Of a stretch of 64,000 nucleotides of DNA, positions 6,424-30,608 are shown piece after piece. A program made the position numbers and the translations under genes. The stretch comes from Halosimplex rubrum (GTDB lineage Archaea; Halobacteriota; Halobacteria; Halobacteriales; Haloarculaceae). The notes beneath the pieces are model-generated. The model saw nothing but the letters and a program-made list of their open reading frames with translations. It was not told the origin of the DNA and did no database searches. The stretch spans positions 2,170,001 through 2,234,000 of the forward strand of contig NZ_CP058910.1 in the NCBI RefSeq assembly GCF_013415885.1, written 5' to 3'. The stretch's first letter is position 1, and each line of letters opens with the position of its first letter.

Positions 6424-6741
6424 ATGCCGACGAAAGTGAACTACGAGGACGTGGACGCCGTCGGTGGCGGGCTCCACTTCCTCCGCGACGAACTGGACTG
6501 CGAGAACCTCGGCGTCTCCGTGCTGGAGTGCGAGCCGGGCTGGACCGGCAAGCCCCACGACCACGCCGAAGACGGCCAGGAGGAGGTGTACGTCCTCGTC
6601 GAGGGCGGAGCCACCGTCACCGTCGGCGGCGAGGACGTGGCGATGGCGCCCGGCGACGCCCTCCGTATCGACCCCGACGAGCGCCGACGGATCGAGAACG
6701 GCGACGCCGAGAGCACGTTCGTCCTCGCCGGCGCCCCCTGA
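6424..6741 (+). CDS. Cupin-domain protein
   Basis: A 105-residue single-domain cupin. Motif 1 is near GWTGKPHDHAEDGQEEVYVLVEG (His and Glu metal ligands) and motif 2 is near MAPGDALRIDPDERRRIEN. The second motif lacks its usual His, so metal binding may be altered. The start MPTKVNYEDVDAV matches haloarchaeal relatives; the frame stays open to 6232, but that part has an un-halophilic composition. Substrate and pathway are unknown. It stands alone between the nar regulators and an AT-rich gap. Confidence 0.8.
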   Translation: MPTKVNYEDVDAVGGGLHFLRDELDCENLGVSVLECEPGWTGKPHDHAEDGQEEVYVLVEGGATVTVGGEDVAMAPGDALRIDPDERRRIENGDAESTFVLAGAP

Positions 6742-7212
6742 ACACGTCCCGTCGCGGAACACCGACCCGGTTCGAGGATCGTACCGGATTTAGAGGATTA
6801 AAACGCGGAATACTGTAACCGAGCGACTGGTTCGGCAGAAAACCGCTTTCGGACCGAAAATTCCGAGTTGTTCCTCCTCTCGAACTCGAAATAAGATCTA
6901 CGGAGTTGATCGCGGCTGAAACGCCTTCGAGGGCTTTTGAGGGCCTGACACGCGTCTTTGAACGAACTTTATTTTCTGTGAGAATTATATGTTCCCGTAT
7001 GTGATATCGAACCCATCATATTTCAATGATTTCGGCGTCGTGCGTATCGGGGGGCGGAAACCGTCGCGGTAGGCGGGTGTTACCGACGCGGGGGTCGGGT
7101 GGAACGGTCGCAACGGTGGCGGGCCGGTGGCGGGACGGGGCTCCGGGTTTATTGTCGAAACTCGGTTAGAGGCAGGCGCCTCCCCCCTCGTTCACGGGTG
7201 GCGGAACGACAC
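6742..7212. other. AT-rich intergenic region (471 bp)
   Basis: No gene is visible. The stretch 6790-7035 is clearly less GC rich than its surroundings. It holds a perfect inverted repeat TTTCGG-A-CCGAAA (6847-6859) and AT-rich elements at 6793-6801 (GGATTAAAA) and around 6968-6992 (TTTATTTTCTGTGAGAATTA). The second AT-rich run could be a promoter for a short RNA or for the downstream small gene, but no product can be assigned. Confidence 0.4.
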
Positions 7213-14537: not shown

Positions 14538-15904
14538 TTCTCTCCCGACCCGTCACCGAGCCGAACCAGCGGATGTCCGACGGCGTCGCCGTCGAACTGG
14601 CGGCGCCCGTCGAGGACGACCACGTCGTCGAACGCTTTCCAGGGGATCGACTCGAACGCCTCGTGCGCCGTCGTGACCACGGCCAGGTCCAGCTCGCGGG
14701 CCTCGATGTCGTCCAGCGAGACGCGCTCGACACCCGCCGGCGGCGAGTCCGTGGTGACGGGGTCGACCGCGTACACCGTCTCGGCGCGGTCGGCGAGCAG
14801 TTCGGCGACGTCGACGCCGGGCGAGGCGCGCGTCTCGTCGACGCCGGGCCGGTAGGCGAGTCCGAACACCGCCGCGGTGACCTCGGCCAGGTCGCGACCC
14901 CGGTCGGCGAGCGCCTCGGTCGCCCGCTCGACCGTGTACTCGGGCATGTACTCGTTGACGTGGCGCGCCGTCTCCAGCAGCGGCGTCGCGCCCTCGAACT
15001 CCGAGATGACGAAGTAGGGGTAGTAGGGGATGCAGTGGCCCCCGACGCCCGGCCCGGGGTCGTGGATGTCGCAGAACGGCTGGGTGTTGGCCACTTCGAT
15101 GGCCTCGGGCACGTCGACGCCGAACTCCCCGGCCAGCGTCGCCAGCTCGTTGGCCAGCGCGATGTTCACGTCGCGGTACAGCCCCTCGAACACCTTCACG
15201 CACTCGGCGGTCGTGGGGTCGCTGACCGCGTAGACCTCCGCGTCGGTGATCCCCCCGTAGATCAGCTCCGCGACCCGCGTGCTCTCGTCGTCGGCGCCGC
15301 CGACGACCTTCGGATGGGCACCGCGGATGTCCTCCAGCGCCCGCCCGCTCATCGTCCGTTCGGGACAGAAGGCGAGCCCGAACTCGCCGAGTCCGAGGCC
15401 GCTCTCGGCTTCGAGCCACGGGGCCACGCGGTCGCGACAGGTCCGCGGCGGGACCGTCGACTCGATTATCACGGTGTCGCCGGCGTCGAGTCCCTCGCCG
15501 ACCGAGCGGACCGCGGCCTCGAGCGCCGACAGGTCCGGACGGTCGTCGGAGACGAGCGTCGGGACGATGACGACGTGGACGCTCGCCTCGCTCGCGGCGT
15601 CGACCGCGTCGGTCGTCGCCGACAGCGACCCGTCGGCGGCCAGCCGCTCGACCGCCTCGGGGAGGCCGGGCTCGCCCTCGACGGGGCACTCGCCGGCGTC
15701 GACGGCCTCGGCCACGTCGGGATCGATGTCGACGCCGGTGACCGCCCCGGACGCCTCGGCGTAGACGGCGGCCAGCGGCAGCCCCATCTTCCCGAGGCCG
15801 TACACCGCGACCGGGACGGCGCCGCCGGCGAACGCGCGTCGCTGGGCAGGTTCGTCGGCGTCGGCGCCGTAGAGCCCCGTCGGTTCCGAACGCTGGCTGC
15901 TCAT
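14534..15904 (-). CDS. UDP-sugar 6-dehydrogenase (WbpA/WecC type)
   Basis: A 456-residue nucleotide-sugar dehydrogenase that oxidises C6 of a UDP-HexNAc to the uronic acid with NAD. A Rossmann motif VYGLGKMGLPLA opens the domain, ESTVPPRTC and FCPERTMSGRAL follow, and the catalytic Cys is in GGHCIPYYPYF. The C-terminal UDP-binding part has FGLAYRPGVDETRASP. ATG 15904 overlaps the stop of the oxidoreductase (ATGA), so the two are translated together. With the oxidoreductase, aminotransferase and acetyltransferase genes it fits the UDP-GlcNAc(3NAc)A route (WbpA step); a plain UDP-ManNAcA role is the alternative. Confidence 0.88.
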   Translation of the reverse strand: MSSQRSEPTGLYGADADEPAQRRAFAGGAVPVAVYGLGKMGLPLAAVYAEASGAVTGVDIDPDVAEAVDAGECPVEGEPGLPEAVERLAADGSLSATTDAVDAASEASVHVVIVPTLVSDDRPDLSALEAAVRSVGEGLDAGDTVIIESTVPPRTCRDRVAPWLEAESGLGLGEFGLAFCPERTMSGRALEDIRGAHPKVVGGADDESTRVAELIYGGITDAEVYAVSDPTTAECVKVFEGLYRDVNIALANELATLAGEFGVDVPEAIEVANTQPFCDIHDPGPGVGGHCIPYYPYFVISEFEGATPLLETARHVNEYMPEYTVERATEALADRGRDLAEVTAAVFGLAYRPGVDETRASPGVDVAELLADRAETVYAVDPVTTDSPPAGVERVSLDDIEARELDLAVVTTAHEAFESIPWKAFDDVVVLDGRRQFDGDAVGHPLVRLGDGSGEN

Positions 15905-16884
15905 GGGCGAGGTACCTCCGCGGGCGTCACGTCGGTGTCGCGCTCGGCCGCGGCCTCGATCCGCTCGGCGAGTTCGACCGCTCGGATGCCGTCCTCGCCG
16001 GTCGTCTCGGGTTCGACCCGCTCGCGGACCGACTCGGCGAACGACGAGAGCTCGTTTTTCAGCGGCTCGCCGGTCTCGACGGTCGGTCGCTCGATGACGC
16101 TCTCGTGGCGGTAGCGCACGTCGCCGTCGGTGGCGACGTACTCCGGCAGCGAGTGGCGGTGGATCTCGACGGACTGGTCCACGTAGTCGACCTCGACGTG
16201 GCAGTCCTCGGCGGTCACCGCGAGGTCGCGGACCCGCTCCTGGGTGACGCGGCTGGCGGTCAGCGACGCGACGCGACCGTCCGCGAACTCGAGCTGGGCG
16301 ACGACGTGACCCCCGCTCGCCGCGCCGACGGCGGACACGTCCGTGACGGGCTCGTCGGTCAGCGAGCAGATGACGTCGATGTCGTGGATCATGAGGTCGA
16401 AGACGACGCTGTCGACGGTGTCGCGGTCGACCGGCGGACCCTGGCGGCGCGCGGCGAAGGCGATCGGGTCGGCGTCGACCATCACGTCCCCCAGAGCGCG
16501 GACCGCGGGGTTGTACCGCTCGATGTGGCCGACCTGGACGAGACAGTCCGCCCCGCGGGCGGCCGCGAGGAGGTCCCGCCCCACCGCTGGGTCGGCGACG
16601 AACGGTTTCTCGACGAGGATATCCGTCCCGGCGTCGATGGCCGCCCGCGCGACCGCCTCGTGGAACCGCGTCGGCACGACCACGGAGACGGCGTCCGCCC
16701 GGGCGAGGAGCTCGTCGCGGTCGCGGGCGGTCGTGTCGAACTCCGCGGCGACCTCGACTGCGCGGCCGGCGTCGGCGTCGGCGACGCCGACCAGGTCGAC
16801 CTCGGGGAGTTCGCTGTAGACGCGAGCGTGGTGGCGACCCATGTTCCCGACGCCGACGACGCCGGTACTGACCTGGTCGCTCAC
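15901..16884 (-). CDS. Gfo/Idh/MocA oxidoreductase, WbpB-like
   Basis: A 327-residue NAD(P)-dependent oxidoreductase. It shows VGVGNMGRHHARVY (dinucleotide fold), VEKPF (active-site Lys) and GHIERYNPAV, all typical of Gfo/Idh/MocA sugar dehydrogenases. WbpB-type enzymes oxidise C3 of UDP-GlcNAcA so that a 3-amino group can be added. GTG 16884 is chosen because GGAGGCGG stands about 10 nt before it and because it overlaps the stop of a short upstream frame (GTGA). A GTG at 17040 in the same frame would add a 52-residue Arg-rich tail; I consider that less likely. It is coupled to the dehydrogenase gene. Confidence 0.82.
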   Translation of the reverse strand: MSDQVSTGVVGVGNMGRHHARVYSELPEVDLVGVADADAGRAVEVAAEFDTTARDRDELLARADAVSVVVPTRFHEAVARAAIDAGTDILVEKPFVADPAVGRDLLAAARGADCLVQVGHIERYNPAVRALGDVMVDADPIAFAARRQGPPVDRDTVDSVVFDLMIHDIDVICSLTDEPVTDVSAVGAASGGHVVAQLEFADGRVASLTASRVTQERVRDLAVTAEDCHVEVDYVDQSVEIHRHSLPEYVATDGDVRYRHESVIERPTVETGEPLKNELSSFAESVRERVEPETTGEDGIRAVELAERIEAAAERDTDVTPAEVPRP

Positions 16885-17033
16885 GACTGTCCGCCTCCGG
16901 TGCCACCGCGGCGACGGCGCGCGCTGACCGACCTGACCCATCGTTCGACCCGTCCGAGTGCGCCGTTCGAGGCGTTCCGGGCGCAGTTCCGCAACGGGAA
17001 CGTGACCGCCGGTGTCGACCGTCCGTGCTTCAT
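16881..17033 (-). CDS. Candidate leaderless leader ORF (50 codons) before the wbpB-like gene
   Basis: ATG 17033 starts 33 nt after a CATAACAA element (minus strand, 17066-17073). The frame (begins MKHGRSTPAVTFPLRN) runs without interruption and stops in GTGA, overlapping the GTG start of the oxidoreductase by four nt. The peptide is basic and Gly/Arg rich, unlike a halophilic protein, so a coupling role is more likely than a folded product. Confidence 0.4.
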   Translation of the reverse strand: MKHGRSTPAVTFPLRNCARNASNGALGRVERWVRSVSARRRRGGTGGGQS

Positions 17034-17065
17034 GAATCACCCGGGGGTAGCGCCGAGCGTCGGCT

Positions 17066-17073
17066 TTGTTATG
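17066..17073 (-). promoter_or_regulatory. CATAACAA promoter element (wbpB/wbpA-like operon)
   Basis: An exact CATAACAA on the minus strand, positioned like a TATA box for the transcript of the oxidoreductase-dehydrogenase pair. The same octamer precedes several other genes between 17 and 31 kb. Confidence 0.45.
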
Positions 17074-17211
17074 CGTTTCCTTTGACTGGTAGCCGGTCGA
17101 TACGGCCCCTTCCGGCCAGCGCGGGGGTCCCGGCCTCAGTGGATAGGACGCCAGAGCGTCCATCTCGGACGATCCGTGGCACCCGGGCGATCGGGGTCAG
17201 GGTAACCGGTT

Positions 17212-17320: not shown

Positions 17321-17866
17321 ATGTCGACAGACGAGGAGACGCTCACGCAGGACGTCGTCTTCGACATCCTCAGTAGCGCCAGACGACGCTACGTGCTCTA
17401 TCTGCTCCGCACCGAGGACGCGCCGGTCGAACTGACGGAGCTCGCCGAGGACGTGGCGGCCTGGGAGAACGACACGACTGTCGAAGATCTGACGAAACAA
17501 CAGCGCAAACGCGTCTACGTCTCGCTGTATCAGACGCACGTCCCCAAACTCGAGGACGCCGGGCTGGTCCGGTACGACCAAGACACCGGCGAGGTCGAGC
17601 TGACGCAGGCGGCCAACGACGTTGACCAGTACCTGAACCCGGGCGAGCGGGAGGTGCCCTGGCAGTACCTGTATCTCCCGCTCGCGCTCCTCGGGGTCGC
17701 CCTGGTCGCCCTGTCGAACCTGAACGTGTGGATCTTCGCGGACATGACCGAGGTCACGCTCGGCGTCATCATCTTCTCCGGCTTCCTCCTCACGGTCGGC
17801 GCACACATCGTCGTGTGGACCATGAACCGCCGTCAGGTCCCCGACGACCTCCGCCGACACTCCTGA
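17321..17866 (+). CDS. DUF7344 winged-helix protein with membrane anchor, copy 2
   Basis: A 181-residue protein. The DUF7344 winged helix covers about residues 10-110 (VVFDILSSARRRYVLYLLRTEDAPVEL...RVYVSLYQTHVPKLEDAGLVRYDQDTGEVEL). Two transmembrane helices follow (YLYLPLALLGVALVALSNL and VTLGVIIFSGFLLTVGAHIVV). It is probably a membrane-anchored DNA-binding regulator. It lies divergently from the wbpB/wbpA-like operon and could control it; that is inference from position. Confidence 0.82.
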   Translation: MSTDEETLTQDVVFDILSSARRRYVLYLLRTEDAPVELTELAEDVAAWENDTTVEDLTKQQRKRVYVSLYQTHVPKLEDAGLVRYDQDTGEVELTQAANDVDQYLNPGEREVPWQYLYLPLALLGVALVALSNLNVWIFADMTEVTLGVIIFSGFLLTVGAHIVVWTMNRRQVPDDLRRHS

Positions 17867-18854: not shown

Positions 18855-19130
18855 TCACACCATGTTCTCGGCTTCGATCTTGTCCCACACGTCCCGGCCC
18901 TGTTCCGTGAGGCCGTAGACGCGGCCTTTCTTGCGGTCGTCGGAGACGAGGAGGTCCACGAGCGACCGTTCCCGGAGGCGCTGGAGCGCCCGCGAGACGT
19001 GCGCGATGCCCACGTCCTCGTCGGAAGCGATCTGCGACGGCGTCGAGGGGCCGTCTGCGAGTCGCTTGAGAACTGCGACGCGATACCGCGAACTGATGAC
19101 GAAGCTGACGTCGTCCCAATCTGTGCTCAT
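18855..19130 (-). CDS. Winged-helix transcription regulator (MarR/ArsR-like)
   Basis: A 91-residue stand-alone winged helix: VSFVISSRYRVAVLKRLADGPSTPSQIASDEDVGIAHVSRALQRLRERSLVDLL then a wing SDDRKKGRVYGLTEQGRDVWDKI. It is of the haloarchaeal PadR/MarR-like type and would bind DNA as a dimer. No ligand site is visible. ATG 19130 overlaps the stop of a 10-codon frame (ATGA). Its target is unknown; the divergent neighbour is a membrane hydrolase gene. Confidence 0.85.
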   Translation of the reverse strand: MSTDWDDVSFVISSRYRVAVLKRLADGPSTPSQIASDEDVGIAHVSRALQRLRERSLVDLLVSDDRKKGRVYGLTEQGRDVWDKIEAENMV

Positions 19131-19356: not shown

Positions 19357-19364
19357 CATAACAA
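19357..19364 (+). promoter_or_regulatory. CATAACAA promoter element (hydrolase)
   Basis: An exact CATAACAA, 27 nt before ATG 19391 of a 50-codon frame and about 180 nt before the hydrolase ATG. The long distance to the hydrolase supports transcription through the short frame. Confidence 0.45.
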
Positions 19365-19390
19365 TCCCCCTGGCTCGCGCGGAGCCGCGC

Positions 19391-19543
19391 ATGGACGTAG
19401 CGGCCCTCCGCGACGGACTCGCCCCCCGCGACGGACTCGCCCCCCACGACGGACTCGCCGACCGTCGTCCGCCGGCGGACCGCACGGGACCCGACCGACG
19501 CCCGCCCGACGACCGCACTCGACCGACAGGCGGGCGGCCGTAG
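19391..19543 (+). CDS. Candidate leaderless leader ORF (50 codons) before the membrane hydrolase
   Basis: The frame starts 27 nt after a CATAACAA element and ends with TAG 19541-19543, one nt before the ATG of the hydrolase. Its first half is built from an 18-bp tandem repeat (RDGLAP units) and the rest is Arg/Asp/Pro rich. It is either a coupling leader or a fast-evolving peptide. Confidence 0.4.
   Translation: MDVAALRDGLAPRDGLAPHDGLADRRPPADRTGPDRRPPDDRTRPTGGRP
19411..19464. repeat. Tandem repeat, 18 bp x 3
   Basis: CGACGGACTCGCCCCC recurs with a period of 18 bp at 19411, 19429 and 19447 (third copy diverged at its end). It lies inside the candidate 50-codon leader frame and keeps its reading phase. 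Confidence 0.8.
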
Positions 19544-19544
19544 C

Positions 19545-20123
19545 ATGTGGCCGTGGGAACACCTCGCCGTCGGCTACCTCGCCTACGCCGTCGTCGGCCG
19601 GCTCGTCTGGCGCGAACCGCCGACGGGGACGACCGCCGCCGCCGTCGCCGTGGGGACGCAGTTCCCCGACCTCGTCGACAAGCCGCTGGGCTGGTGGCTC
19701 GGCGTGCTCCCCGGCGGGACGACGCTGGCCCACTCGCTGCTGACCGCGGTCCCGCTGAGCCTCGCCGTCCTGGCCCTCGGCGCCGCGGCCGGTCGCGAGC
19801 GCCCCGCCCTCGCGTTCGTCGTCGGCTACCTGAGTCACCTCCCCGGGGACGTGCTCTACCCGGTCGTCCTCGGGGGCGACGCGAAGCTGTGGTTCCTCCT
19901 GTGGCCGCTCCGGGCCGCTCCCGGGGACGGCCCCGACCACACGATCACGCACGTGCTGGCGCTGGCCGAGCAGTTCCTCGGGTTTCTCGCCACCCCCCTC
20001 GGCGCCGCCTACCTGACGGCCGAACTGCTCCTGCTGGCGCTGGCCGGCTGGGTCTGGACGCTCGACGGCCGCCCGGGGCTCGCCTGGGTGCTCCCGCGGC
20101 CGGACCGCGCCGAGAACTTCTGA
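19545..20123 (+). CDS. Membrane-bound metal-dependent hydrolase (YdjM/DUF457-like)
   Basis: A 192-residue membrane protein with the family pattern: WEHLAVGYLAYAVVGRLV, GTQFPDLVDKPLGWW (FPDLxDK), TTLAHSLLTAVPL (metal-binding His), and GYLSHLPGDVLYPVV (SHLxxD). Four or five hydrophobic helices are present. These proteins are annotated as metal-dependent hydrolases of unknown substrate. ATG 19545 follows the stop of the 50-codon leader by one nt. Confidence 0.85.
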   Translation: MWPWEHLAVGYLAYAVVGRLVWREPPTGTTAAAVAVGTQFPDLVDKPLGWWLGVLPGGTTLAHSLLTAVPLSLAVLALGAAAGRERPALAFVVGYLSHLPGDVLYPVVLGGDAKLWFLLWPLRAAPGDGPDHTITHVLALAEQFLGFLATPLGAAYLTAELLLLALAGWVWTLDGRPGLAWVLPRPDRAENF

Positions 20124-20192: not shown

Positions 20193-20213
20193 AGTCGAGT
20201 GAGAAGTGGGGGT

Positions 20214-20699
20214 ATGGGGTCAGAGCAGCCACCGGAGAGCCGGTCGAGTGACGACGACCGGCGACGAGCCGGGGATCCGCACGGAGCCCGAGGGGAGAGC
20301 GACGCGTCCGCCGAGGACGCGACGAGCACGTCGACCACCGAACGGGGGAGTCGCGACGCCGCCAGCGAGCGGCCGGTGTCGGTCGACGACCTCTTCGAGT
20401 TGCTGGCTCGCCCCGGCAACAGGTTCACGCTGGCGTACCTGAGCCGGGCGGACGGGCCGGTCCCCTACGAGGACCTCGTCGAGAACGTCGTCGACGGGGC
20501 GGAGACCCCCGGCGACCTCTCGAGGGACGACTTCCGCGACCAGGTCGCGACCAGACTCGTCCACTCGAACCTCCCGAAGCTCGACGACGCCGGGCTCGTC
20601 GAGTACGACCGCGAGCGGCGGACCGTCCGGGCGACCGAGGCGACCGCGGTCGCGGTCCCGTACCTCGAACTCGCGATGGACCAGTTCCCCGCGGAGTGA
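20214..20699 (+). CDS. DUF7344 winged-helix protein, copy 3 (soluble)
   Basis: A 161-residue protein. An acidic Ser/Glu/Asp-rich N-terminal 55 residues precede a DUF7344 winged helix (VDDLFELLARPGNRFTLAYLSRADG...TRLVHSNLPKLDDAGLVEYDRERRTVRAT). Unlike the two other copies it has no transmembrane helices and ends at MDQFPAE. It stands directly upstream of the wbpD/wbpE-like operon on the same strand, and may regulate it. Confidence 0.8.
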   Translation: MGSEQPPESRSSDDDRRRAGDPHGARGESDASAEDATSTSTTERGSRDAASERPVSVDDLFELLARPGNRFTLAYLSRADGPVPYEDLVENVVDGAETPGDLSRDDFRDQVATRLVHSNLPKLDDAGLVEYDRERRTVRATEATAVAVPYLELAMDQFPAE

Positions 20700-20792
20700 C
20701 GCCCTCGCGGCGGACCGGTCGCCCGCGGCGCGAGCGGCCGGCGACGCGCGTCGACCGGCGCCGTGTCGCGACGGCGGGGCCCGCAAGCGCTC

Positions 20793-20800
20793 CATAACAA
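20793..20800 (+). promoter_or_regulatory. CATAACAA promoter element (acetyltransferase/aminotransferase operon)
   Basis: An exact CATAACAA, 32 nt before ATG 20832. The transcript would have a leader of only a few nt and carry both glycan genes. Confidence 0.5.
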
Positions 20801-20831
20801 AGGTCGACCCGTGCCGAGCGTCGACCGTCAC

Positions 20832-21428
20832 ATGAGCGAGCACGACCTCTCGACCGTCCGGACCGGCGACGGCTGCGACATCGCCGAGACGGCGGTCGTC
20901 GGCGAGCCCGGGGGCTCGGGCGACGCGTACACCCGAATCGGCGACGACGCCACCGTCCGCGGCGGCACCATCGTCTACACCGACGTCGAGATCGGCGACG
21001 GCTTCTCGACGGGGCACCACGCGCTGGTCCGGAGCGGTACCACCGTCGGCGACGACGTCCTCGTCGGGAGCCAGGCGGTCCTCGACGGCGACGTGACCCT
21101 CGGGTCGCGCGTCAGCTGCCAGACCGGCGTCTACCTCCCGCCGAAGACGACCGTCGGCGACGACGTGTTCCTCGGTCCCCACGCCGTCGTCACGAACGAC
21201 CCGTACCCGGTGCGGGCGCGGAGCGAACTCGTCGGCGCCACCCTCGAATCGAACGTCTCCGTGGGCGCGAACGCGACGATCCTCCCCGACGTGACCGTCG
21301 GCGAGGGGTCGTTCGTCGCCGCGGGCTCGGTCGTCACCGAGGACGTGCCGCCCGGGACGCTGGCGATGGGCAACCCGGCGCGCCACGAACCGCTGCCCGA
21401 CGAGCTCGACGGGGGGAACGAGCTGTGA
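20832..21428 (+). CDS. Left-handed beta-helix N-acetyltransferase, WbpD-like
   Basis: A 198-residue hexapeptide-repeat acyltransferase. Repeats run from about residue 35 to 185 (GDDATVRGGTIVYTDVEIGDG...VGDDVFLGPHAVVTND...VGEGSFVAAGSVVTEDVPPG) and end with MGNPAR. WbpD-type enzymes acetylate the 3-amino group of UDP-GlcNAc(3NH2)A using acetyl-CoA. The gene overlaps the aminotransferase gene by four nt (GTGA), and the two consecutive reactions of the pathway are thus coupled. The exact sugar is inferred from the neighbours. Confidence 0.82.
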   Translation: MSEHDLSTVRTGDGCDIAETAVVGEPGGSGDAYTRIGDDATVRGGTIVYTDVEIGDGFSTGHHALVRSGTTVGDDVLVGSQAVLDGDVTLGSRVSCQTGVYLPPKTTVGDDVFLGPHAVVTNDPYPVRARSELVGATLESNVSVGANATILPDVTVGEGSFVAAGSVVTEDVPPGTLAMGNPARHEPLPDELDGGNEL

Positions 21429-22528
21429 GCCTCGAAGACCACCGACAGATCCCCGTCGCCGAGCCCGCCCTGGGCAGCGAGGAGCGCGAGCGCGTCCGGG
21501 AAGTGCTCGACAGCGGGATGATAGCCGACGGCGAGGAGGTCCGCGCCTTCGAGCGGGAGTTCGCCACCACCTGCCACGTCGACCGCGGCGTCGCCACCTC
21601 CAACGGGACGACGGCGCTGCACACCGCCCTGCGAGCCTGCGGGATCGGCGAGGGCGACACCGTCGTCACGACGCCGTTTTCCTTCGTCGCGACCGCCAAC
21701 GCCGTCCGCTTCTGCGGCGCCGAACCCGTCTTCGCCGACATCGACCCCGACACCTACAACCTCGACCCGACCGCGGTCCGCGAGGCCATCGAGATCCGCG
21801 GCGGCGACGTGGACGCGGTCCTCCCGGTCCACCTCTACGGGCTGCCCGCGCCGATGGACGAGATCGCCGCGATCGCCGAGGAGTACGACGCCGCCGTCGT
21901 CGAGGACGCGGCCCAGGCCCACGGCGCCCGCTACCGCGACGAGCCGGTGGGGTCGCTGGGCGACGCCGCCGCCTTCTCCTTTTACCCGACGAAGAACATG
22001 ACCACCGGCGAGGGCGGGATGGTCGTCACCGACGACGAGGCGGTCGCCGACCGCGCCGAGCGGTTCGTCAACCACGGCCGGAACGAGCGGTACGACCACG
22101 TCGAACTCGGGCACAACTTCCGGATGACGAACATCGCCGCCGCCATCGGTCGCGTCCAGCTCAAGCGGCTCTCGCGGTTCGTCCGCGCGCGCCGGGACAA
22201 CGCCGCCGCGCTCACCGAGGCGCTCGCCGAGGCGCCCGTCGACCCGCCGACGGTCCCCGACGGCGTCGACCACGCCTTCCACCAGTACACCGTCCGGGCG
22301 CCCGACCGCGAGCGGCTGGTCGCCCACCTCGACGACCACGGGATCGACACCGGCGTCTACTACCCCACGCCGATCCACGAGCAGCCGGCCTACGAGGGCG
22401 TCGACGAGCGGTTCCCCGTCGCCGAGCGGGCCGCGGCGGAAGTCGTCTCGCTGCCGGTCCACCCCGGCGTCTCGGAGGGGGACCGCGGAGCGATCGCCGA
22501 CGCGCTCGCGCTGTACCAGCCGCAGTAG
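21425..22528 (+). CDS. DegT/DnrJ/EryC1/StrS aminotransferase, WbpE-like
   Basis: A 367-residue PLP-dependent sugar aminotransferase. Landmarks are ATSNGTTALHTALRACGI (phosphate-binding region), VVEDAAQAHGARY (Asp contacting the PLP ring), FYPTKNMTTGEGGMV (Schiff-base Lys) and NHGRNERYDHVELGHNFRMTNIAAAIG. WbpE transfers the amino group of glutamate to the 3-keto UDP sugar produced by a WbpB-type enzyme; the candidate WbpB is at 15.9 kb. The start is GTG 21425, overlapping the acetyltransferase stop. Confidence 0.9.
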   Translation: MSLEDHRQIPVAEPALGSEERERVREVLDSGMIADGEEVRAFEREFATTCHVDRGVATSNGTTALHTALRACGIGEGDTVVTTPFSFVATANAVRFCGAEPVFADIDPDTYNLDPTAVREAIEIRGGDVDAVLPVHLYGLPAPMDEIAAIAEEYDAAVVEDAAQAHGARYRDEPVGSLGDAAAFSFYPTKNMTTGEGGMVVTDDEAVADRAERFVNHGRNERYDHVELGHNFRMTNIAAAIGRVQLKRLSRFVRARRDNAAALTEALAEAPVDPPTVPDGVDHAFHQYTVRAPDRERLVAHLDDHGIDTGVYYPTPIHEQPAYEGVDERFPVAERAAAEVVSLPVHPGVSEGDRGAIADALALYQPQ

Positions 22529-22552: not shown

Positions 22553-24322
22553 TCAGACTTCGACCGCGGACCGCCCGCGAGCCGCGGCGCCGTCGTCCAG
22601 GTGTCGACGCGCCCAGAGCTCCAGCCCCGTCAGCGCCGCGACCGGCGCGAACGTCGACAGCTCGCCCTCGGCGAGGCGGTCCCGCAGTGCCGACACGGCG
22701 TCGGCGTCGAGGGGATCGCGCCGGGCGACGCCGTCGAGGAGGTCGTCGACGAACCGCCGGAAGCGGTCGTCGGTCGCGTACCGGCGGGCGTAGGCGTCGC
22801 CGCCCGCCGCTCCGCGCTCGCCGTCCGGCTCCTCGTCCCGAGACGCGGTCGGGTCGCCGGCCGGTCCCGTCGGGATCCCCGCCAGGTCGGAGCCGAGCCG
22901 GTCGGCAATCGCCCGGCGGATCGGTGGGGAACCCGCGCCGACCGGCGCCGAGATGGGCCGCGTCCCGGTCCGGTAGGCGGCGGGCATGCGGGCGGCGGTG
23001 TCTAGGAGCGGCCCGCTCGCGAGCGTCCTGGTACCGACCTGCCGGCGCTGGACCGCGCGACTCCGCAACTCGGTGGCGGCGCGCACCTGCCCGGCCGCGT
23101 CGACGGCCGTCCGCTCGGTCGGTCCGTCGACGCCGGCCGCGACGACCGCGTCGACCGAGTCCAGCGGGTCCGCGTCGACCGCGAGCAGGTCCCGGACCGA
23201 CTCCGCGGGGAGGACGCGCTCGTGTTCGTAGAGCGCGCTCGCCGCCGAATCGTCCGCGCCGATGGCGCCCGCCCACGTCGCCGCGTCGAGGGCGGCGTCG
23301 CCGTGGACGAGCACGTCCGCGTCTTCGTGGAGCCCGTCGGTCACGTAGGGGAGCGCGTCGACGGCCGACCACGCCACCATCGCGTCGGTCGCCGCCACGG
23401 CGTCGGCGACGGCGTCGACGAGGTGGTGGTCCGGGTCTCCGTGGGCCTGCGTGTTCGGTCCCCCGAGGTGGGCGGCGACCCGCGCCGCCGTCTCCCTGTC
23501 ACCGCCTCCCGGGCGTCCGCACGTGAGCGTCCGGACCGGGGGCGACTGGTCGGCGAGCACCGCCGCGGCGATCCGGCTGTCGGCGTCAGCCGGGAACCAG
23601 AGCGTCCAGTCGCCCGCCGTCGTCGCCACGTCCGCGAGCGCGCGCCGGTAGTCGGCGAGCCACCGGTCGGGGTACCCCGACGGCGCCAGCCCCTCGGCGG
23701 CCGGCTCCCAGTAGCGTTCGGTCGACACCTCGCCGTCGACGGTCAGTCGCGTCGCCGGCGGGAGGCTCCCGACCGCCTCGACGAGCGTCCGGTCGCCGAC
23801 GACGCCACCGAACAGCAGCAGGTCACCCACCGCCCGGGCGTCGAGAGTCGGGTCGTCGCGCTCGGCGACCAGCGGACCGAGTTCCGACGCGAAGGCGACG
23901 TCGTCGATCCCGTCGTCTCCCGCCGCGCCGGCGTCGGCCGTCGCGTAGTAGAGCGGGCGACTCCCCGCCTTGTCGGTCACCAGGTGGACCGCGCCCGCGC
24001 GGGTGTCGACGCAGGCCAGCGCGAACGGCCCGTCGAGCCGCGCCAGCGTGTCCCGCGAGTCGTCGGCGACCCCCCGGAAGAGGTCGCCCCACGACAGCGC
24101 CAGCCGGTCGCGGTTCGAGACGACGCCGTAGACGACGCCGAGGAGGCCGTCGCCCCGCCAGACGACGTTCGCGTCCGGGTCGCGCGTCCCGTGTTCGAGC
24201 ACGCCAACGGCGGCCGCCCCGTCGCTCGCGCTCTCCAGTTCGTACCAGTCCTCGTCGACCATCGCCCCGGCCATCTCGTCCAGCCGCCCGCCGCCCGCAG
24301 ATCGTCCGATCAGTCCCGTCAT
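22553..24322 (-). CDS. Asparagine-synthase-like protein with both active sites degenerate
   Basis: A 589-residue protein with the architecture of AsnB: an N-terminal Ntn glutaminase-like domain (LDGPFALACVDTRAGAVHLVTDKAG, RPLYY) and a C-terminal synthetase-like domain. The glutaminase nucleophile Cys2 is absent (MTGLIG instead of MCGI). The PP-loop SGGxDS is replaced by PADADS in WFPADADSRIAAAV. Neither glutaminase nor AMP-forming activity is expected. ATG 24322 lies 27 nt after a TATAACAA element, so it is probably leaderless. It lies among surface-glycan genes, where active AsnB-like amidotransferases occur; this copy may have become structural or regulatory. Confidence 0.75.
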   Translation of the reverse strand: MTGLIGRSAGGGRLDEMAGAMVDEDWYELESASDGAAAVGVLEHGTRDPDANVVWRGDGLLGVVYGVVSNRDRLALSWGDLFRGVADDSRDTLARLDGPFALACVDTRAGAVHLVTDKAGSRPLYYATADAGAAGDDGIDDVAFASELGPLVAERDDPTLDARAVGDLLLFGGVVGDRTLVEAVGSLPPATRLTVDGEVSTERYWEPAAEGLAPSGYPDRWLADYRRALADVATTAGDWTLWFPADADSRIAAAVLADQSPPVRTLTCGRPGGGDRETAARVAAHLGGPNTQAHGDPDHHLVDAVADAVAATDAMVAWSAVDALPYVTDGLHEDADVLVHGDAALDAATWAGAIGADDSAASALYEHERVLPAESVRDLLAVDADPLDSVDAVVAAGVDGPTERTAVDAAGQVRAATELRSRAVQRRQVGTRTLASGPLLDTAARMPAAYRTGTRPISAPVGAGSPPIRRAIADRLGSDLAGIPTGPAGDPTASRDEEPDGERGAAGGDAYARRYATDDRFRRFVDDLLDGVARRDPLDADAVSALRDRLAEGELSTFAPVAALTGLELWARRHLDDGAAARGRSAVEV

Positions 24323-24348
24323 GGCCCGGACGTGACTGCAGCCGGGTA

Positions 24349-24356
24349 TTGTTATA
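24349..24356 (-). promoter_or_regulatory. TATAACAA promoter element (AsnB-like gene)
   Basis: The octamer on the minus strand ends exactly 27 nt before ATG 24322, implying a leaderless transcript. It differs from CATAACAA at the first base only. Confidence 0.5.
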
Positions 24357-24842
24357 GGGACCCTGCGGCGGCCCGTCCGCGATATCGATCCCGATACCGC
24401 CGCCTCGCTCCGCTCCACGCAGCCTCCCGGTTCGCCGTCCGCCGATATCTACTGCCGAAATCGAATAACAGTATCAAAACTATACATCCGAAACAGCAGT
24501 TATCGATCATATCTGGCCGATCGATACCTAAATCGCCTATCGAGCCACCCTTATCTGTCTAGAGCGACGTTCGATCGTACAGCAGTCGTCTGATTCGGTT
24601 ACGGTGAACCACCCCGTCCATCAGACAGTCGCAGATCGATATCTCGATATCTCGTTTATGAGCGCGGATGCCCGGGATACTGTCACGGGAGAACTTCGTC
24701 TCCCACACCACCCTCTCGATTTTCATAAATATTCATAGATAACATTAGAAGTGGTAGTACTGTGCAGTCTATATTTCCCAAGTCGTCCGACCCCGGCTGT
24801 AGGCGCCGTGACGGCCGAGGAGGCGAGGACGGGTAGTCGCGC

Positions 24843-24850
24843 CATAACAA
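24843..24850 (+). promoter_or_regulatory. CATAACAA promoter element (deacetylase)
   Basis: An exact CATAACAA, 27 nt before ATG 24877. GTG 24858, the upstream limit of the deacetylase frame, would be inside the promoter and is therefore rejected as a start. Confidence 0.5.
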
Positions 24851-24876
24851 TCCGTGCGTGCGGCCTGGACTACCCC

Positions 24877-24909
24877 ATGACGAGGTATCGAGACGCGTGG
24901 GATCGGTAG
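24877..24909 (+). CDS. Candidate leaderless mini-ORF (10 codons) overlapping the deacetylase start
   Basis: ATG 24877 opens MTRYRDAWDR with TAG 24907-24909, in another frame than the deacetylase. It lies 27 nt after CATAACAA and overlaps the proposed GTG start (24897) by 13 nt. A frameshift error in the sequence could also explain it, but the same layout is seen at other genes here. Confidence 0.35.
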   Translation: MTRYRDAWDR

Positions 24910-25820
24910 TCCTCTCCGTCGACGCGGAGCTGGCCTGGGGGTTCGTCGATCACGGCGAGCCGCCGAGCGACCGGGTCGAAAGCGGTCGCGAGGGGTGGCG
25001 ACGGCTCCGGCGGCTCTGCGAGGCGTACGACGTGCCGGCGACCTGGGCGGTCGTCGCCCATCTGCTACACGACGAGTGCGACGGTCGCCACGACGACCAC
25101 CCGATCGGCCCCGGGTGGTTCGCGCGCGAGCGAGGGGAGTGGGCCGAGCGGCCCGACCTGACGCGGGGCCCCGAACTCGTCGAAGAGCTGCGAGCGTCGC
25201 CCGTCGCCCACGATATCGGCTGTCACACGTACAGCCACGTCGAGTTCGGCGCGCCGGGGACGACCCGGGCGATGGCGGCCGCCGAGCTGGAGCGCAGTCG
25301 GGCGCTCATGGACGAGTGGGGGATCGACGGCCGATCGTTCGTCTTCCCCCGCAACAACGTGGGGCACGTCGACCTGCTGGCCGACTACGGCTTCGAGGTG
25401 TACCGCGGGCGCCGCCCCGTCGAACGGCGGTCGCTCCCGGAGAAACTCCGGACCGTCGCAGTCGGTGACGGCCGTCCTCCGCTCGTCCGCCCGACGGTCG
25501 ACGACGACGGCCTCGTGAACCTGCCGGCGTCGCTGTTCCTCTACAGCTACGAGGGGCTGCCGTTGCGGGCGACGAAGCCGTTCGTCGGCGACCCCGTCGT
25601 CGAACTCGTCGAGCGCGGGCTGGACGCAGCGGCCGAGGGCGAGGGCGTCCTCCACCTCTGGCTGCACCCGAACAACCTGGTCGACGACGCCGCGGTCGAA
25701 CGGATCGAGGCGGTCCTCCGGGCCGTCGACGAGCGCCGCGACGCGGTCCCCGTCGAGACGATGGCGGAGGTCGCGGCCCGGCGGCGCCCCCAGCGGGTGC
25801 GGTCGGAGACTCGCGACTGA
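24897..25820 (+). CDS. Polysaccharide deacetylase (NodB-homology family)
   Basis: A 307-residue carbohydrate esterase 4-like protein. SVDAELAWGF supplies the Asp motif, HDIGCHTYSHVEFG the metal-binding H-x3-H, and FVFPRNNVGHVDLLADYGFEVYRG the Arg motif; LHLWLHPNNLVDD near the C-terminus gives the last His. All key residues are present, so it is probably active on an acetylated sugar polymer or lipid-linked glycan. GTG 24897 begins right at the family core (GSVVLSVDAE). It leads a plus-strand series with the epimerase and glycosyltransferase. Confidence 0.85.
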   Translation: MGSVVLSVDAELAWGFVDHGEPPSDRVESGREGWRRLRRLCEAYDVPATWAVVAHLLHDECDGRHDDHPIGPGWFARERGEWAERPDLTRGPELVEELRASPVAHDIGCHTYSHVEFGAPGTTRAMAAAELERSRALMDEWGIDGRSFVFPRNNVGHVDLLADYGFEVYRGRRPVERRSLPEKLRTVAVGDGRPPLVRPTVDDDGLVNLPASLFLYSYEGLPLRATKPFVGDPVVELVERGLDAAAEGEGVLHLWLHPNNLVDDAAVERIEAVLRAVDERRDAVPVETMAEVAARRRPQRVRSETRD

Positions 25821-25932: not shown

Positions 25933-26055
25933 ATGCGTGTCGACCAGCGAACGGACGAATCGCGCGTCCCCGCCAGTGATCGCGGCGAGCGGCGCCGAAC
26001 CGGCGTATCGACCGAGCGGACGGCTCCCGTGGGGGTGAGCCGTCGTGACGAGTGA
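25933..26055 (+). CDS. Candidate leaderless leader ORF (40 codons) before the epimerase
   Basis: ATG 25933 (first codons MRVDQRTDESRVPAS) runs to TGA 26053-26055 and overlaps the GTG start of the epimerase by 11 nt. GGGGGTGAG in its last part is a good Shine-Dalgarno for that start. A TATAACTA element is 28 nt upstream. Confidence 0.4.
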   Translation: MRVDQRTDESRVPASDRGERRRTGVSTERTAPVGVSRRDE

Positions 26056-26995
26056 CCCGGCGAGCGGGCTCGACGGGGAGTCGGTCCTCGTGACCGGCGG
26101 GGCGGGCTTCGTCGGGAGCCACCTCGCGGCCGCGCTGGCCGACCGCTGCGAGGTCACCGTGCTGGACGACTGTTCGACGGGCGACCCCGCGAACGTCCCC
26201 GACGGTGCGACCCTGGTGAGGGGCGACGTGCGCGACCCGACCGACCTCGGGCCAGCGATGCGGGGGGTCGACGTCGTCTTCCACCAGGCGGCGCTGGCCG
26301 ACGTGCGCGCCTCGATCCGGTCGCCGGTCGAGGGGCACCGTCGGACCGCGTCGGGGACGGTGAAGGTCCTCGACGCGGCCCGCCGGGAAGACGCCCGGGT
26401 CGTCACCGCCTCCAGCGCCGCGGTCTACGGCCAACCGGACACGCTCCCGATCCGCGAGTCCGACCGGAAGACGCCCCTCACTCCCTACGGGATCGACAAG
26501 CTCGCGGCCGACCAGTACACGCGGCGGTTCGCCGATCGCTACGGCATGGAGACGGTCGCGTTGCGGTACTTCAACGTGTACGGTCCGGGGGAGCGGAGCG
26601 ACCGGACCGGCACCGACGACGTGGTCGGCGCCTTCCTCGACCGAGCGCGCTCCGACAGCGTGCTCCCGATCGACGGCGACGGGACCCAGACCCGCGATTT
26701 CGTCCACGTCGACGACGTGGTGCAGGCGAACCTCCGCGCGGCGACGACCGACGCGACCGGGCGGGCCTACAACGTCGGCAGCGGCACCGGCGTCTCCGTG
26801 CGGGAGGTCGCCGAGCGAGTCACTCGGCTGGTCGGTTCGGACAGCGAGGTCGTCCACGGGAACCCCCGCGAAGGGGACATCAAACACAGTCGGGCGGCGC
26901 TCGGACGCGCGCGCAGTCGGCTCGGGTACGAGCCGACCTACGACTTCGAGGAGGGGCTGGCGACGCTGGTCGACCGGGCGACCGTTCCGAGCTGA
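26045..26995 (+). CDS. NAD-dependent nucleotide-sugar epimerase/dehydratase
   Basis: A 316-residue extended short-chain dehydrogenase of the GalE/WbpP type. VLVTGGAGFVGSHLA binds NAD, SSAAVYG gives the Ser, and YGIDK the catalytic Tyr and Lys. ALRYFNVYGPGE and GDGTQTRDFVHVDDVV are typical of UDP-sugar 4-epimerases. It would supply an epimerised UDP-hexose or UDP-HexNAc for glycan assembly. The start is GTG 26045. Confidence 0.88.
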   Translation: MTSDPASGLDGESVLVTGGAGFVGSHLAAALADRCEVTVLDDCSTGDPANVPDGATLVRGDVRDPTDLGPAMRGVDVVFHQAALADVRASIRSPVEGHRRTASGTVKVLDAARREDARVVTASSAAVYGQPDTLPIRESDRKTPLTPYGIDKLAADQYTRRFADRYGMETVALRYFNVYGPGERSDRTGTDDVVGAFLDRARSDSVLPIDGDGTQTRDFVHVDDVVQANLRAATTDATGRAYNVGSGTGVSVREVAERVTRLVGSDSEVVHGNPREGDIKHSRAALGRARSRLGYEPTYDFEEGLATLVDRATVPS

Positions 26996-27084: not shown

Positions 27085-28068
27085 ATGTATCAGGACACGA
27101 CAATCGGCGTCGTCGTGCCGGCGTACAACGAAGCGGGCTTCGTCGGCGACGTCATCGACTCGATCCCGGCGTTCGTCGACCGTATCTACCCCGTCGACGA
27201 CGCCTCCACGGACGGCACCTGGGACGAGATCCGCGAGCACGCACAGCGACAGAACACGCCGACACCGGAACTCGTCGGCGACGGCGGGACCCAGCGGCGG
27301 GTCGTCCCGATCCAGCACAGCGAGAACAGGGGCGTCGGCGGCGCCATCAAGACCGGCTACCAGCGCGCGGTGGCCGACGGCGTCGAGGTCGTCACCGTCA
27401 TGGGCGGCGACGGCCAGATGGACCCCGACATCATCGAGCGCATCATCGACCCGGTCGTCGACGGCCGGGCCGACTACGCCAAGGGCAACCGCCTCCTCCT
27501 GGGCGACCACTACGACTCGATGCCCCGCTTTCGCTACGTCGGTAACGTCACGCTCACCTACCTCACACGCATCGCGAGCGGCTACTGGGAGATCGGCGAC
27601 CCCCAGAACGGCTACACCGCCATCTCCGCCGAGGCCATCGAGGCCGCGGACCTCGACGAGATGTACGAGTTCTACGGCTACTGCAACGATCTGCTCGTCC
27701 GACTGAACGTCGCCAACATGCGCGTCGTCGACGTGCCGACCCCCGCCGTCTACGGCGACGAGGAGAGCCACATCGACTACTCGACGTACATCCCCCGAGT
27801 CTCCGGCATGCTGCTCGGGAACTTCCTGTGGCGCCTCCGCGCCAAGTACGTCGCCGACCACCCCCACCCGGTCGCCCTGTGTTACCTGCTCGGCGCCGGC
27901 GGGTTCGCGACCGGGCTCGCCGGCGTCCTGCTCGCCCTCCTGAACGGGACGGCCGGCCCCGCCCTGGCCGCCGTCGGGTTCGGGCTGTGCTTTCTCCTCC
28001 TGGCAATGGTTCTGGACAAGCGATCGAACGACCACCTCACGACTGTCGCCTCGGCGACACCGACCTGA
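27085..28068 (+). CDS. Family 2 glycosyltransferase with two C-terminal membrane helices
   Basis: A 327-residue DPM-like glycosyltransferase. GVVVPAYNEAGFVGDVI starts the GT-A fold, PVDDASTDGTWDEI holds the first Asp motif, GGAIKTGYQRAV is typical, and VMGGDGQMDPDIIE is the metal-binding DxD-like site. About 50 C-terminal residues form two helices (ALCYLLGAGGFATGLAGVLLALL, ALAAVGFGLCFLLLAMV). Such enzymes load sugars on dolichol phosphate at the inner membrane face. It resembles AglJ/AglD-type proteins in layout but cannot be assigned to one step. Confidence 0.88.
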   Translation: MYQDTTIGVVVPAYNEAGFVGDVIDSIPAFVDRIYPVDDASTDGTWDEIREHAQRQNTPTPELVGDGGTQRRVVPIQHSENRGVGGAIKTGYQRAVADGVEVVTVMGGDGQMDPDIIERIIDPVVDGRADYAKGNRLLLGDHYDSMPRFRYVGNVTLTYLTRIASGYWEIGDPQNGYTAISAEAIEAADLDEMYEFYGYCNDLLVRLNVANMRVVDVPTPAVYGDEESHIDYSTYIPRVSGMLLGNFLWRLRAKYVADHPHPVALCYLLGAGGFATGLAGVLLALLNGTAGPALAAVGFGLCFLLLAMVLDKRSNDHLTTVASATPT

Positions 28069-28688: not shown

Positions 28689-30497
28689 TCACTCCACCGT
28701 GACGCTCTTGGCCAGGTTGCGCGGTTTGTCGACGGGTCGGTCCAGCAACGTCGCGGTGTGATAGGACAGCAGCTGGAGCTGGACGTTCGCCAGGACGCCG
28801 ACGAGCTCGGGATGGCTTTCTGGCACCCACAGCACGTCGTCGGCGACCTCGGCCACTTCTCTCTCCGAGCGCGGGGCGACCGCCACGACCGGCGCCCCCC
28901 GCGCGCTCACTTCCTCGATGCTCCCGACGAGCTTCTCGGTGTGCTGACCCGTGCAGATGGCGAACACCGGGGTCGAGGGGGTCACGAGCGCCAGCGGTCC
29001 GTGTTTGAGCTCGCCGGCGGGGAACCCCTCGGCGTGCTCGTAGGAGATCTCCTTGAGCTTCAGCGCCCCCTCCAGCGCGACGGGGTGACCCGTCCCGCGG
29101 CCGATGAAGAAGTACGCGTCGCTGTCGTCGTAGCGGGTCGCCAGCGCGCTCGCCGAGGAGTCGGCCAGGATGGTCTCGACGGCGTCGGGCACGTCGTCGA
29201 GCGCGGCCGGCAGTCCCTCGGTCGCCGAGCCCGTACCGCCCGCCTCGCGGGCGATCCGCTCGGCGAGCAGGCCGAGCGTCGCCACCTGCGAGGAGAACGT
29301 CTTCGTCGCGGCGACGCCGATCTCCGGCCCGGCCCGGATCAGGACGGTGTCGTCGCACTCGCGGGCGGCCGTCGATCCGACGACGTTCGTCACCGCCAGC
29401 GTCCGCAGCCCCTCGGAGGCGCCCCGTCGGAGCGCCGCGAGCGTGTCGGCGGTCTCGCCGCTCTGGGTGACCCCCACGAGGACGGTCCCGTCCTCCGTCG
29501 GCGGGGCCGTCACCGCGTACTCGCTGGCGAGGTACGCGCGGGCCGGGACGCCCCGTTCGCGCAGCAGTTGCGCCCCGTACAGCGCGGCGTGATAGGAGGT
29601 GCCACAGGCGACGAAGTGGACGCGGTCCGCGTCGGCGAAGGCGCCGGCCGACAGCGACTCGAAGGCGACCCCGTCGCCGTCGGCCCGACCGCGCACGGCC
29701 TGAGCGATCGCCGTCGGCTGTTCGTCGATCTCCTTGCGCATGTAGTGGTCGAAGGCCCCTTTCTCCACGTCCTCGGAGGTCCAGTCGACCGTCTCGACGC
29801 TCCGGTCGACGGGCGCGCCACCGGTGTCGGTGATGTCGTAGCCTCCGGGCGTGACCCGGACCACGTCGCCGTCTTCGAGGTAGACCACGTCGTCGGTGAA
29901 CTCCAGGAACGCCGGCACGTCGCTGGCGAGGTAGTACGAGTCGTCGCTGACGCCGAAGACGAGCGGCGACCCCTGGCGGGCGGCGTAGACGACCTCCTCG
30001 TCCTCGTGGACCATGGCGATCGCGTAGCTGCCCGACAGGTCGTCGACCGCGCGCCGGAAGGCGGCCTCGACGCCCGCGCCCTCGTCGACGTAGGCCTCGA
30101 CGAGATGCGGGACGACTTCGGTGTCCGTGTCGCTGGAGAAGGTGTGTCCCATCTCGGAGAGCCGCTCGCGGAGTTCGCCGTGGTTCTCGATGATCCCGTT
30201 GTGGACGACGGCCAGGTCACCGTAGCAGTCCGTGTGCGGGTGGGCGTTCGCGTTCGTCGGCGGGCCGTGCGTGCTCCAGCGGGTGTGACCGAGCCCGACG
30301 CGACCGGCCATCGAGCTCCGCGAGAGCAGGTCGGCGAGCTCGTCGACCTTCCCCTCGCGCTTGACGACCTCGACGCCGCTGCCGTCGACGACGGCGACCC
30401 CCGCCGAGTCGTAGCCGCGGTACTCGAGGTTCTGGAGTCCGGTCAGCAGCGTCGACACCGCGTCGTCGTCGCCGACCGCGGCGGTGATGCCGCACAT
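28689..30497 (-). CDS. glmS: Glutamine-fructose-6-phosphate aminotransferase (isomerizing)
   Basis: A 602-residue enzyme that makes glucosamine-6-phosphate from fructose-6-phosphate and glutamine, the entry to UDP-GlcNAc. It starts at ATG 30497 so that Cys2 of MCGITAAVG is the glutaminase nucleophile; GHTRWSTHGPPTNANAHPH and HNGIIENHGELR are typical. Two SIS isomerase domains follow (CGTSYHAALYGAQLL, GVTQSGETADTLAALR, YFFIGRGTGHPVALEGALKLKE), and it ends KPRNLAKSVTVE as expected. GGAGGT lies six nt before the ATG. It feeds the nucleotide-sugar pathways of this region. Confidence 0.96.
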   Translation of the reverse strand: MCGITAAVGDDDAVSTLLTGLQNLEYRGYDSAGVAVVDGSGVEVVKREGKVDELADLLSRSSMAGRVGLGHTRWSTHGPPTNANAHPHTDCYGDLAVVHNGIIENHGELRERLSEMGHTFSSDTDTEVVPHLVEAYVDEGAGVEAAFRRAVDDLSGSYAIAMVHEDEEVVYAARQGSPLVFGVSDDSYYLASDVPAFLEFTDDVVYLEDGDVVRVTPGGYDITDTGGAPVDRSVETVDWTSEDVEKGAFDHYMRKEIDEQPTAIAQAVRGRADGDGVAFESLSAGAFADADRVHFVACGTSYHAALYGAQLLRERGVPARAYLASEYAVTAPPTEDGTVLVGVTQSGETADTLAALRRGASEGLRTLAVTNVVGSTAARECDDTVLIRAGPEIGVAATKTFSSQVATLGLLAERIAREAGGTGSATEGLPAALDDVPDAVETILADSSASALATRYDDSDAYFFIGRGTGHPVALEGALKLKEISYEHAEGFPAGELKHGPLALVTPSTPVFAICTGQHTEKLVGSIEEVSARGAPVVAVAPRSEREVAEVADDVLWVPESHPELVGVLANVQLQLLSYHTATLLDRPVDKPRNLAKSVTVE

Positions 30498-30574
30498 CAC
30501 CGCCACCTCCGGGCGGCCGGCGCTGCTCCGTCGGTTTCGGTCCGGTCGGTTCGGTCGACAGGCGACTCTGTCAT
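30497..30574 (-). CDS. Candidate leaderless mini-ORF (25 codons) before glmS
   Basis: ATG 30574 lies exactly 27 nt after a CATAACAA element (minus strand, 30601-30608). The frame begins MTESPVDRTDRTETDG and stops in TGATG, sharing one base with the glmS start. The glmS Shine-Dalgarno GGAGGT is inside its last codons. This is the clearest case of the leaderless, coupled layout. Confidence 0.5.
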   Translation of the reverse strand: MTESPVDRTDRTETDGAAPAARRWR

Positions 30575-30600
30575 GCTTCCGCGTAACCGAGAACGTGACA

Positions 30601-30608
30601 TTGTTATG
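30601..30608 (-). promoter_or_regulatory. CATAACAA promoter element (glmS)
   Basis: An exact CATAACAA on the minus strand, 27 nt before ATG 30574 and 104 nt before the glmS ATG. Confidence 0.5.

Follow-up and report, generated by a model that had tools for sequence, protein, structure and literature searches.

The window analysed here, a stretch of 64,000 nucleotides from Halosimplex rubrum, contains on its minus strand an open reading frame (22553..24322; 589 aa plus stop) whose product has the fold of asparagine synthetase B (AsnB) and has lost the residues of both AsnB catalytic sites. For convenience, it is termed the dead protein below. The gene is located between two blocks of genes. 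On one side are those for a YdjM-like membrane protein (19545..20120, plus strand; assigned by Pfam and synteny), a DUF7344 protein, a NeuD-like hexapeptide acyltransferase (20763..21425, plus strand) and a DegT/DnrJ/EryC1 sugar aminotransferase (21425..22525, plus strand). On the other are those for a polysaccharide deacetylase-like protein (24858..25817, plus strand), the true start of which is probably GTG 24897 as judged from its promoter and micro-ORF, an NAD-dependent sugar epimerase/dehydratase (26045..26992, plus strand) and a family 2 glycosyltransferase with a weak likeness to AglJ (27085..28065, plus strand). Beyond these lies GlmS (28692..30497, minus strand; TIGR01135, 728.5 bits), which retains Cys2 and an MCG start at 30497. 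A Gfo/Idh/MocA oxidoreductase recognized by Pfam (15904..17163, minus strand) is found on the other side of the locus from GlmS; it is present in five of six compared loci, and the 14-kb stretch covered for the other one lacks it. These six Halosimplex loci share one gene order, and the sugar-related families surrounding the dead gene agree with the original prediction that it lies within glycan genes. By gene family only, the locus resembles a Wbp-type pathway for making acetylated amino sugars or uronic acids. A second GlmS-like protein, 58-60% identical to the locus GlmS, is encoded elsewhere in the genome (G000:C1:1113744-1115603). Two DUF7344 genes in total (17321-17863 and 20199-20696, plus strand) and one for an HVO_A0261-type winged-helix protein (18858-19130, minus strand) also lie in the locus; they are conserved in most or all of the compared loci and are candidate regulators of the shared promoter.

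This promoter is represented ahead of the dead gene by the box ATAACAAT (24348..24355, minus strand), separated from the start codon by exactly 25 nt. The same spacing is observed in all seven Halosimplex orthologues, the start codon being ATG except in H. aquaticum, where it is GTG, which supports the good leaderless promoter predicted for the gene. The window contains four promoters with this box, where shuffled sequence would give 0.02, and only five ATAACAAT-N22-28-ATG sites occur in the whole 4.48-Mb genome, four of which belong to the dead-gene locus, each with a 25-nt gap. The promoter type is therefore shared with the glycan genes, as had been proposed, and its presence ahead of GlmS suggests that the locus GlmS is a dedicated hexosamine supply. 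At the other three ATAACAAT-N25-ATG promoters of the window, the ATG opens a micro-ORF and not the main gene directly. The first of these, with 50 codons (19358-19543, plus strand), stops a single base short of the YdjM start codon; the second, with 10 codons (24844-24909, plus strand), runs slightly beyond the probable GTG at which the deacetylase gene begins; the third, with 25 codons (30497-30607, minus strand), overlaps the GlmS start (TGATG). All three are found again at other Halosimplex loci, though not without exceptions: in genome G394 the deacetylase micro-ORF has a GTG start, H. aquaticum lacks it in this form, and some loci do not show all of the sites, partly as the fetched stretches end too early. 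Such leaderless-looking micro-ORFs possibly reflect translational coupling or leader-peptide control. Among relatives outside the dead clade, the box lies within 60 nt upstream of the start in 14 of 61 (L006, L007, L008, L009, L011, L014, L019, L020, L021, L023, L026, L029, L030, and L070), and 33 similar sites precede other neighbourhood genes in 787 kb of fetched loci. The sites, which are distributed across haloarchaeal genera, are a candidate glycan-locus promoter class. Further upstream of the dead gene, a 20-nt element CGGTATCGGGATCGATATCG (24380..24399, minus strand) is largely conserved in the upstream alignment of the seven orthologues and has its only exact match in the genome here; it represents a possible operator. 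The upstream element CGGTATCGNNATCGATATCG was rejected as a shared operator, having no second site in the window and no clear site set in the genome.

The open reading frame starts at 24322 with MTGLIG and stops at 22553, and both domains originally claimed for its product are recognizable. Matches to Pfam GATase_7 (E = 2.8e-7, 31 bits against a cut-off of 25) and Asn_synthase (E = 1.7e-5, 25.1 bits against 21; residues 248-344) were obtained above the thresholds, while the curated AsnB score was missed (TIGR01536 of NCBIfam, 51.4 bits against 267.1). An AlphaFold model built from 67 family sequences has a mean pLDDT of 85.7 and a pTM of 0.89, and superimposes over residues 2-577 on E. coli AsnB (1ct9) with Z = 27.5 and an rmsd of 3.6 for 444 aligned residues. 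The score against beta-lactam synthetase (1m1z) is a tie at Z = 27.2, followed by carbapenam synthetase at Z = 22.2. The top Foldseek match of the model was TsnB9 (7ylz), the solved structure that the sequence profile of the live family also matched best (1.8e-25). A single dead-protein sequence compared with solved structures returned nothing meaningful, whereas the family profile did find matches. As modelled, then, the dead protein retains the two-domain AsnB architecture along its full length, with an Ntn/GATase-like N-domain (approximately residues 1-205; 23708..24322, minus strand), delimited by aligning the family and by reference to the E. coli enzyme and a canonical haloarchaeal AsnB, and a synthetase-like domain (approximately residues 217-455; 22958..23674, minus strand), delimited by the Pfam match and the secondary structure of the model.

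In the N-domain, codon 2 (24317..24319, minus strand) encodes Thr where AsnB carries the nucleophile Cys, exactly as first noted, and alignment with E. coli AsnB and the canonical haloarchaeal AsnB shows that the NGE-type residues are missing as well. An alternative start restoring MCG was considered and rejected, since the in-frame upstream extension to GTG 24418 contains no M-C-G. This loss does not set the Halosimplex protein apart. None of 65 family relatives carries Cys2, position 2 being Thr in 37, Pro in 13, Val in 8, Ser in 5, Arg in 1 and a gap in 1, and the NGE-type AsnB residues are also missing in the glycan-locus family members compared. Consequently, glutaminase loss is ancestral and occurred long before Halosimplex. 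As it is common to relatives with an intact PP-loop, it is by itself no mark of a new role, and the idea of Cys2 loss as a distinguishing feature was rejected.

The synthetase half displays a different pattern. The PP-loop, WLSGGLDSR in relatives, is replaced by WFPADADSR at residues 242-250 (23573..23599, minus strand), and in the alignments PADADS falls exactly on SGGLDS, which confirms the predicted substitution and rejects a PP-loop located elsewhere in the protein. The seven Halosimplex orthologues all read WFP[GA]D[AGP][DG]SR, with WFP.D..SR as the common part and SGG absent; a sequencing error or chance was rejected as the cause, since the loss is shared by all seven. Outside the genus, a PP-loop of SGG/SSG type is kept in 63 of 65 relatives (SGGLDSR in 60, a close variant in 3), so that the search for the same substitutions in other haloarchaeal clusters, called for with the original prediction, found them throughout Halosimplex and not among these relatives, and the synthetase loss is specific to the Halosimplex lineage. 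The two relatives lacking an intact loop are L039, which reads SGDLDDR, and L068, which is broken. In addition to the loop, the columns lost in Halosimplex include L243, S244, G246, L247, Y268, E340, G346, K469, Y485, R487, H495, and W514, among others, most relatives keeping the Lys, Tyr and lid residues that the Halosimplex clade lacks. The lid loop (residues 487-507; 22802..22864, minus strand) has lost the family PYERT...P..H motif, with columns 485, 487, and 495 lost from each of the six aligned orthologues. Its modelled pLDDT is under 50, whereas the model of L005, a live relative, contains no segment that low. By comparison with E. coli AsnB in MAFFT, Cys2, NGE, SGGLDS and the K-containing loop are all missing, a view that is suggestive only for the C-terminal third including the catalytic Lys, where the global HMM alignment is unreliable. 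Columns at least 90% conserved outside Halosimplex were kept in all six orthologues or lost in all six in proportions of 24 to 3 for the N-domain and 12 to 16 for the synthetase half (Fisher p = 0.0005, for columns that are not independent). Eleven columns are invariant across live and dead forms in 67 rows: G66, G98, F100, D117, T179, Y204, R250, R432, R535, E568, and W570.

The family counts derive from 74 searched loci; the alignment has 73 rows, as L002 duplicates L073 and was excluded. The 65-row Cys2 and PP-loop count dropped six Halosimplex orthologues, L073, and L074; the 61-row outside set for the lost-column and kept/lost counts dropped the same six together with L061, L068, L071, L072, L073, and L074; and the 67-row alignment and 71-row tree both omit L054, L061, L068, and L071, which align partially. 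The seventh orthologue (G394, L097) entered the loop comparison, the tree, the upstream and frame alignment and the promoter and micro-ORF comparison, and stands outside the six-row column counts and six-genome dN/dS rates. Homology extends over the full length, residues 1-576 of the dead protein aligning to most haloarchaeal glycan-locus relatives, with an identity to members outside Halosimplex of 22-37% in the 67-row alignment. The tree of 71 rows places all seven Halosimplex proteins in a single clade (support 100/100, stem 0.92) with the site-intact L005 and L064 as sister (support 100/99), although the long stem and the unusual composition flagged by the tree tool for the dead rows make the exact sister less sure than the single origin. 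The synthetase was thus lost in one event, on the Halosimplex stem. Matches at 1e-10 or better were found in 77 of 392 drawn genomes of the order, part of them only to distant AsnB-like proteins, and matches at 1e-30 in 19 of 146 genomes of the taxonomic family, where all matches outside the dead clade are at most 38% identical. Outside Halosimplex, genome G147 encodes the damaged L039 (6128-7900) together with the near-intact L009 (SSGLDSR), and the broken gene L068 in G114 (approximately 6124-7099) indicates that family members there can be lost.

The dead gene is present in seven of eight Halosimplex genomes, the exception being a 71%-complete assembly. The seven carriers are at least 99% complete, and their copies are full-length down to a protein identity of 65-66%, with the frame intact in all seven, no frameshift, and gaps that are all whole-codon. 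Nucleotide differences are concentrated at third codon positions. The dN/dS ratio lies between 0.33 and 0.44, with a median of 0.37 (15 pairs, 6 genomes), and below 0.5 in every pair, by the NG86 method, which tends to misjudge dS on high-GC genes. It is nevertheless the highest of eight block genes tested, the medians of the others ranging from 0.08 to 0.31, and it exceeds both the 0.12-0.24 of live relatives (8 pairs) and the 0.177 of the live paralogue in the two genomes having both. The dead gene is retained by selection under a constraint looser than that of its neighbours or live relatives, and part of the protein may be drifting. These rates bear most directly on the first of the two main rivals of a non-catalytic role, slow decay, according to which the function was lost on the Halosimplex stem or became nearly dispensable and degeneration is merely lagging. 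The elevated dN/dS, the variability of the replaced loop, held invariant or nearly so in live clades as a PP-loop, and the low-confidence lid region would all fit such a process. Set against them are the full-length copies in every near-complete genome at such divergence, the whole-gene ratio that never reaches 0.5, the conserved promoter box and upstream element, and the N-domain, which kept most of its family residues while the synthetase half lost its own. On balance, slow decay appears unlikely, albeit credible enough to be weighed seriously.

The second main rival is a neofunctionalised enzyme, in which PP-loop chemistry would have been abandoned and the reshaped pocket W-F-P-G/A-D-x-x-S-R would serve another reaction or another nucleotide. 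The motif common to all seven orthologues, the retention of S249 and R250 at the loop end, and the invariance of R250, R432, R535, E568, and W570 in live and dead forms are what such an enzyme might be expected to display. However, the six aligned orthologues differ from one another at three of the nine loop positions, including D248 to G in H. aquaticum, and G, K, and Y residues that never vary in live relatives have been lost. Moreover, Pro and Asp in a phosphate-binding turn would be hard to square with pyrophosphate binding. A new enzymatic activity accordingly seems improbable. Least of all is it to be expected that the dead protein serves a live paralogue of the AsnB family as a regulatory or scaffold subunit, a very improbable arrangement since, although G277 and G396 hold both members and G147 pairs a damaged copy with a near-intact one, no full-length live family paralogue was found in the other five of seven dead-protein genomes, the window's included (only distant AsnB-like proteins or none), and the live locus of G277 (L035) shares no core neighbour cluster with the dead-gene locus. 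Regulation of a live family paralogue is thus unlikely in general; other amidotransferase partners, either a distant AsnB-like paralogue or the locus GlmS, are possible.

The reading we favour, with about even confidence, is that the dead protein is a pseudoenzyme fixed throughout the genus, which serves an amino-sugar glycan pathway without catalysis, by binding, as a scaffold or in regulation. The original prediction took the double loss to suggest a new, non-catalytic role, such as that of a scaffold or a regulator of an active amidotransferase. Of this, the synthetase loss holds as a lineage-specific event while the ancestral Cys2 loss carries no such meaning, and a non-catalytic role continues to be the best reading of a retained protein with two dead sites, the live paralogue as regulated partner being restricted to two of seven genomes. 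The process may be described in stages. The ancestors would belong to the haloarchaeal glycan-locus AsnB-fold family, with the glutaminase already lost and an ATP-using synthetase half kept. From the analogy of WbpS-type sugar amidotransferases, this half presumably coupled a sugar carboxylate with ammonia or an amine; catalysis by the live relatives is suggested only by their conserved residues. On the Halosimplex stem, the synthetase would then also have been lost, with the PP-loop, the conserved Tyr, Glu, Gly, and Lys, and the lid motif. The fold and the N-domain stayed, as did several family-invariant residues, R250, R432, R535, E568, and W570. If expressed from its predicted promoter, the dead protein would most likely bind a sugar intermediate or a partner enzyme, acting as a scaffold or regulatory subunit. 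A more specific version, in which the AsnB fold, dead in two steps, became a dedicated subunit sensing a sugar intermediate and controlling or assembling enzymes that are co-regulated with it, perhaps GlmS of the locus among them, is decidedly doubtful; the locus GlmS has the same promoter type and a GATase domain. If true, it would represent a pseudo-amidotransferase governing hexosamine supply to the surface glycan.

Pseudoenzymes are a kind already well known and are common, but it is rare to find one that has many site-intact relatives, a second loss assigned to a single branch and a known set of promoters. The same genus holds dead and site-intact members, H. carlsbadense having both, so that the effect of synthetase loss is directly testable in culturable organisms. 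Furthermore, the present analysis flags a haloarchaeal glutaminase-less AsnB-like family in glycan loci that may amidate archaeal surface sugars.

In comparison with known systems, the closest likeness is to the haloarchaeal "asparagine synthase-related protein" family, found in plasmid records of Haladaptatus, Halorussus, Haloferax, and others. Full-length homology, the absence of Cys2, the N-domain residues and the glycan-gene surroundings are common to both, and the promoter box in part; that family, however, keeps the synthetase site, and the Halosimplex clade is a relative by descent and not a working member. With E. coli AsnB (1ct9), the two-domain fold is shared but not Cys2, NGE, SGGLDS or the K-containing loop. 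Beta-lactam and carbapenam synthetases share the AsnB fold and have no working glutaminase, but their synthetase site is intact and they use ATP. The dead glutaminase of the beta-lactam synthetase type is shared by the Halosimplex protein, the kept PP-loop is not. The likeness to the hydroxyamidotransferase TsnB9 (7ylz) is a profile and fold match only, implying no common function, and the dead protein lacks the PP-loop. No paper on a dead or pseudo AsnB-type protein was found in literature searches of open-licence papers; in the parts available, a Haloferax transposon paper (PMC5198076) mentions only an Lrp/AsnC regulator, with no bearing on the AsnB-like protein, and PMC13060819 offers background on AsnB-type chemistry only. 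The WbpS/WbqG sugar amidotransferases provide, as here, an AsnB-like gene in an amino-sugar and uronic-acid setting, and in P. gingivalis the AsnB-like WbpS is reported to be required for the uronamide form of a sugar of amino-sugar/uronic-acid type (PMC7468200). The dead protein misses the curated WbpS score (TIGR03108, 37.7 bits against 816.9) and, with no catalytic residues, cannot be a working WbpS. For its site-intact relatives, by analogy, WbpS is the best guide to a possible role.
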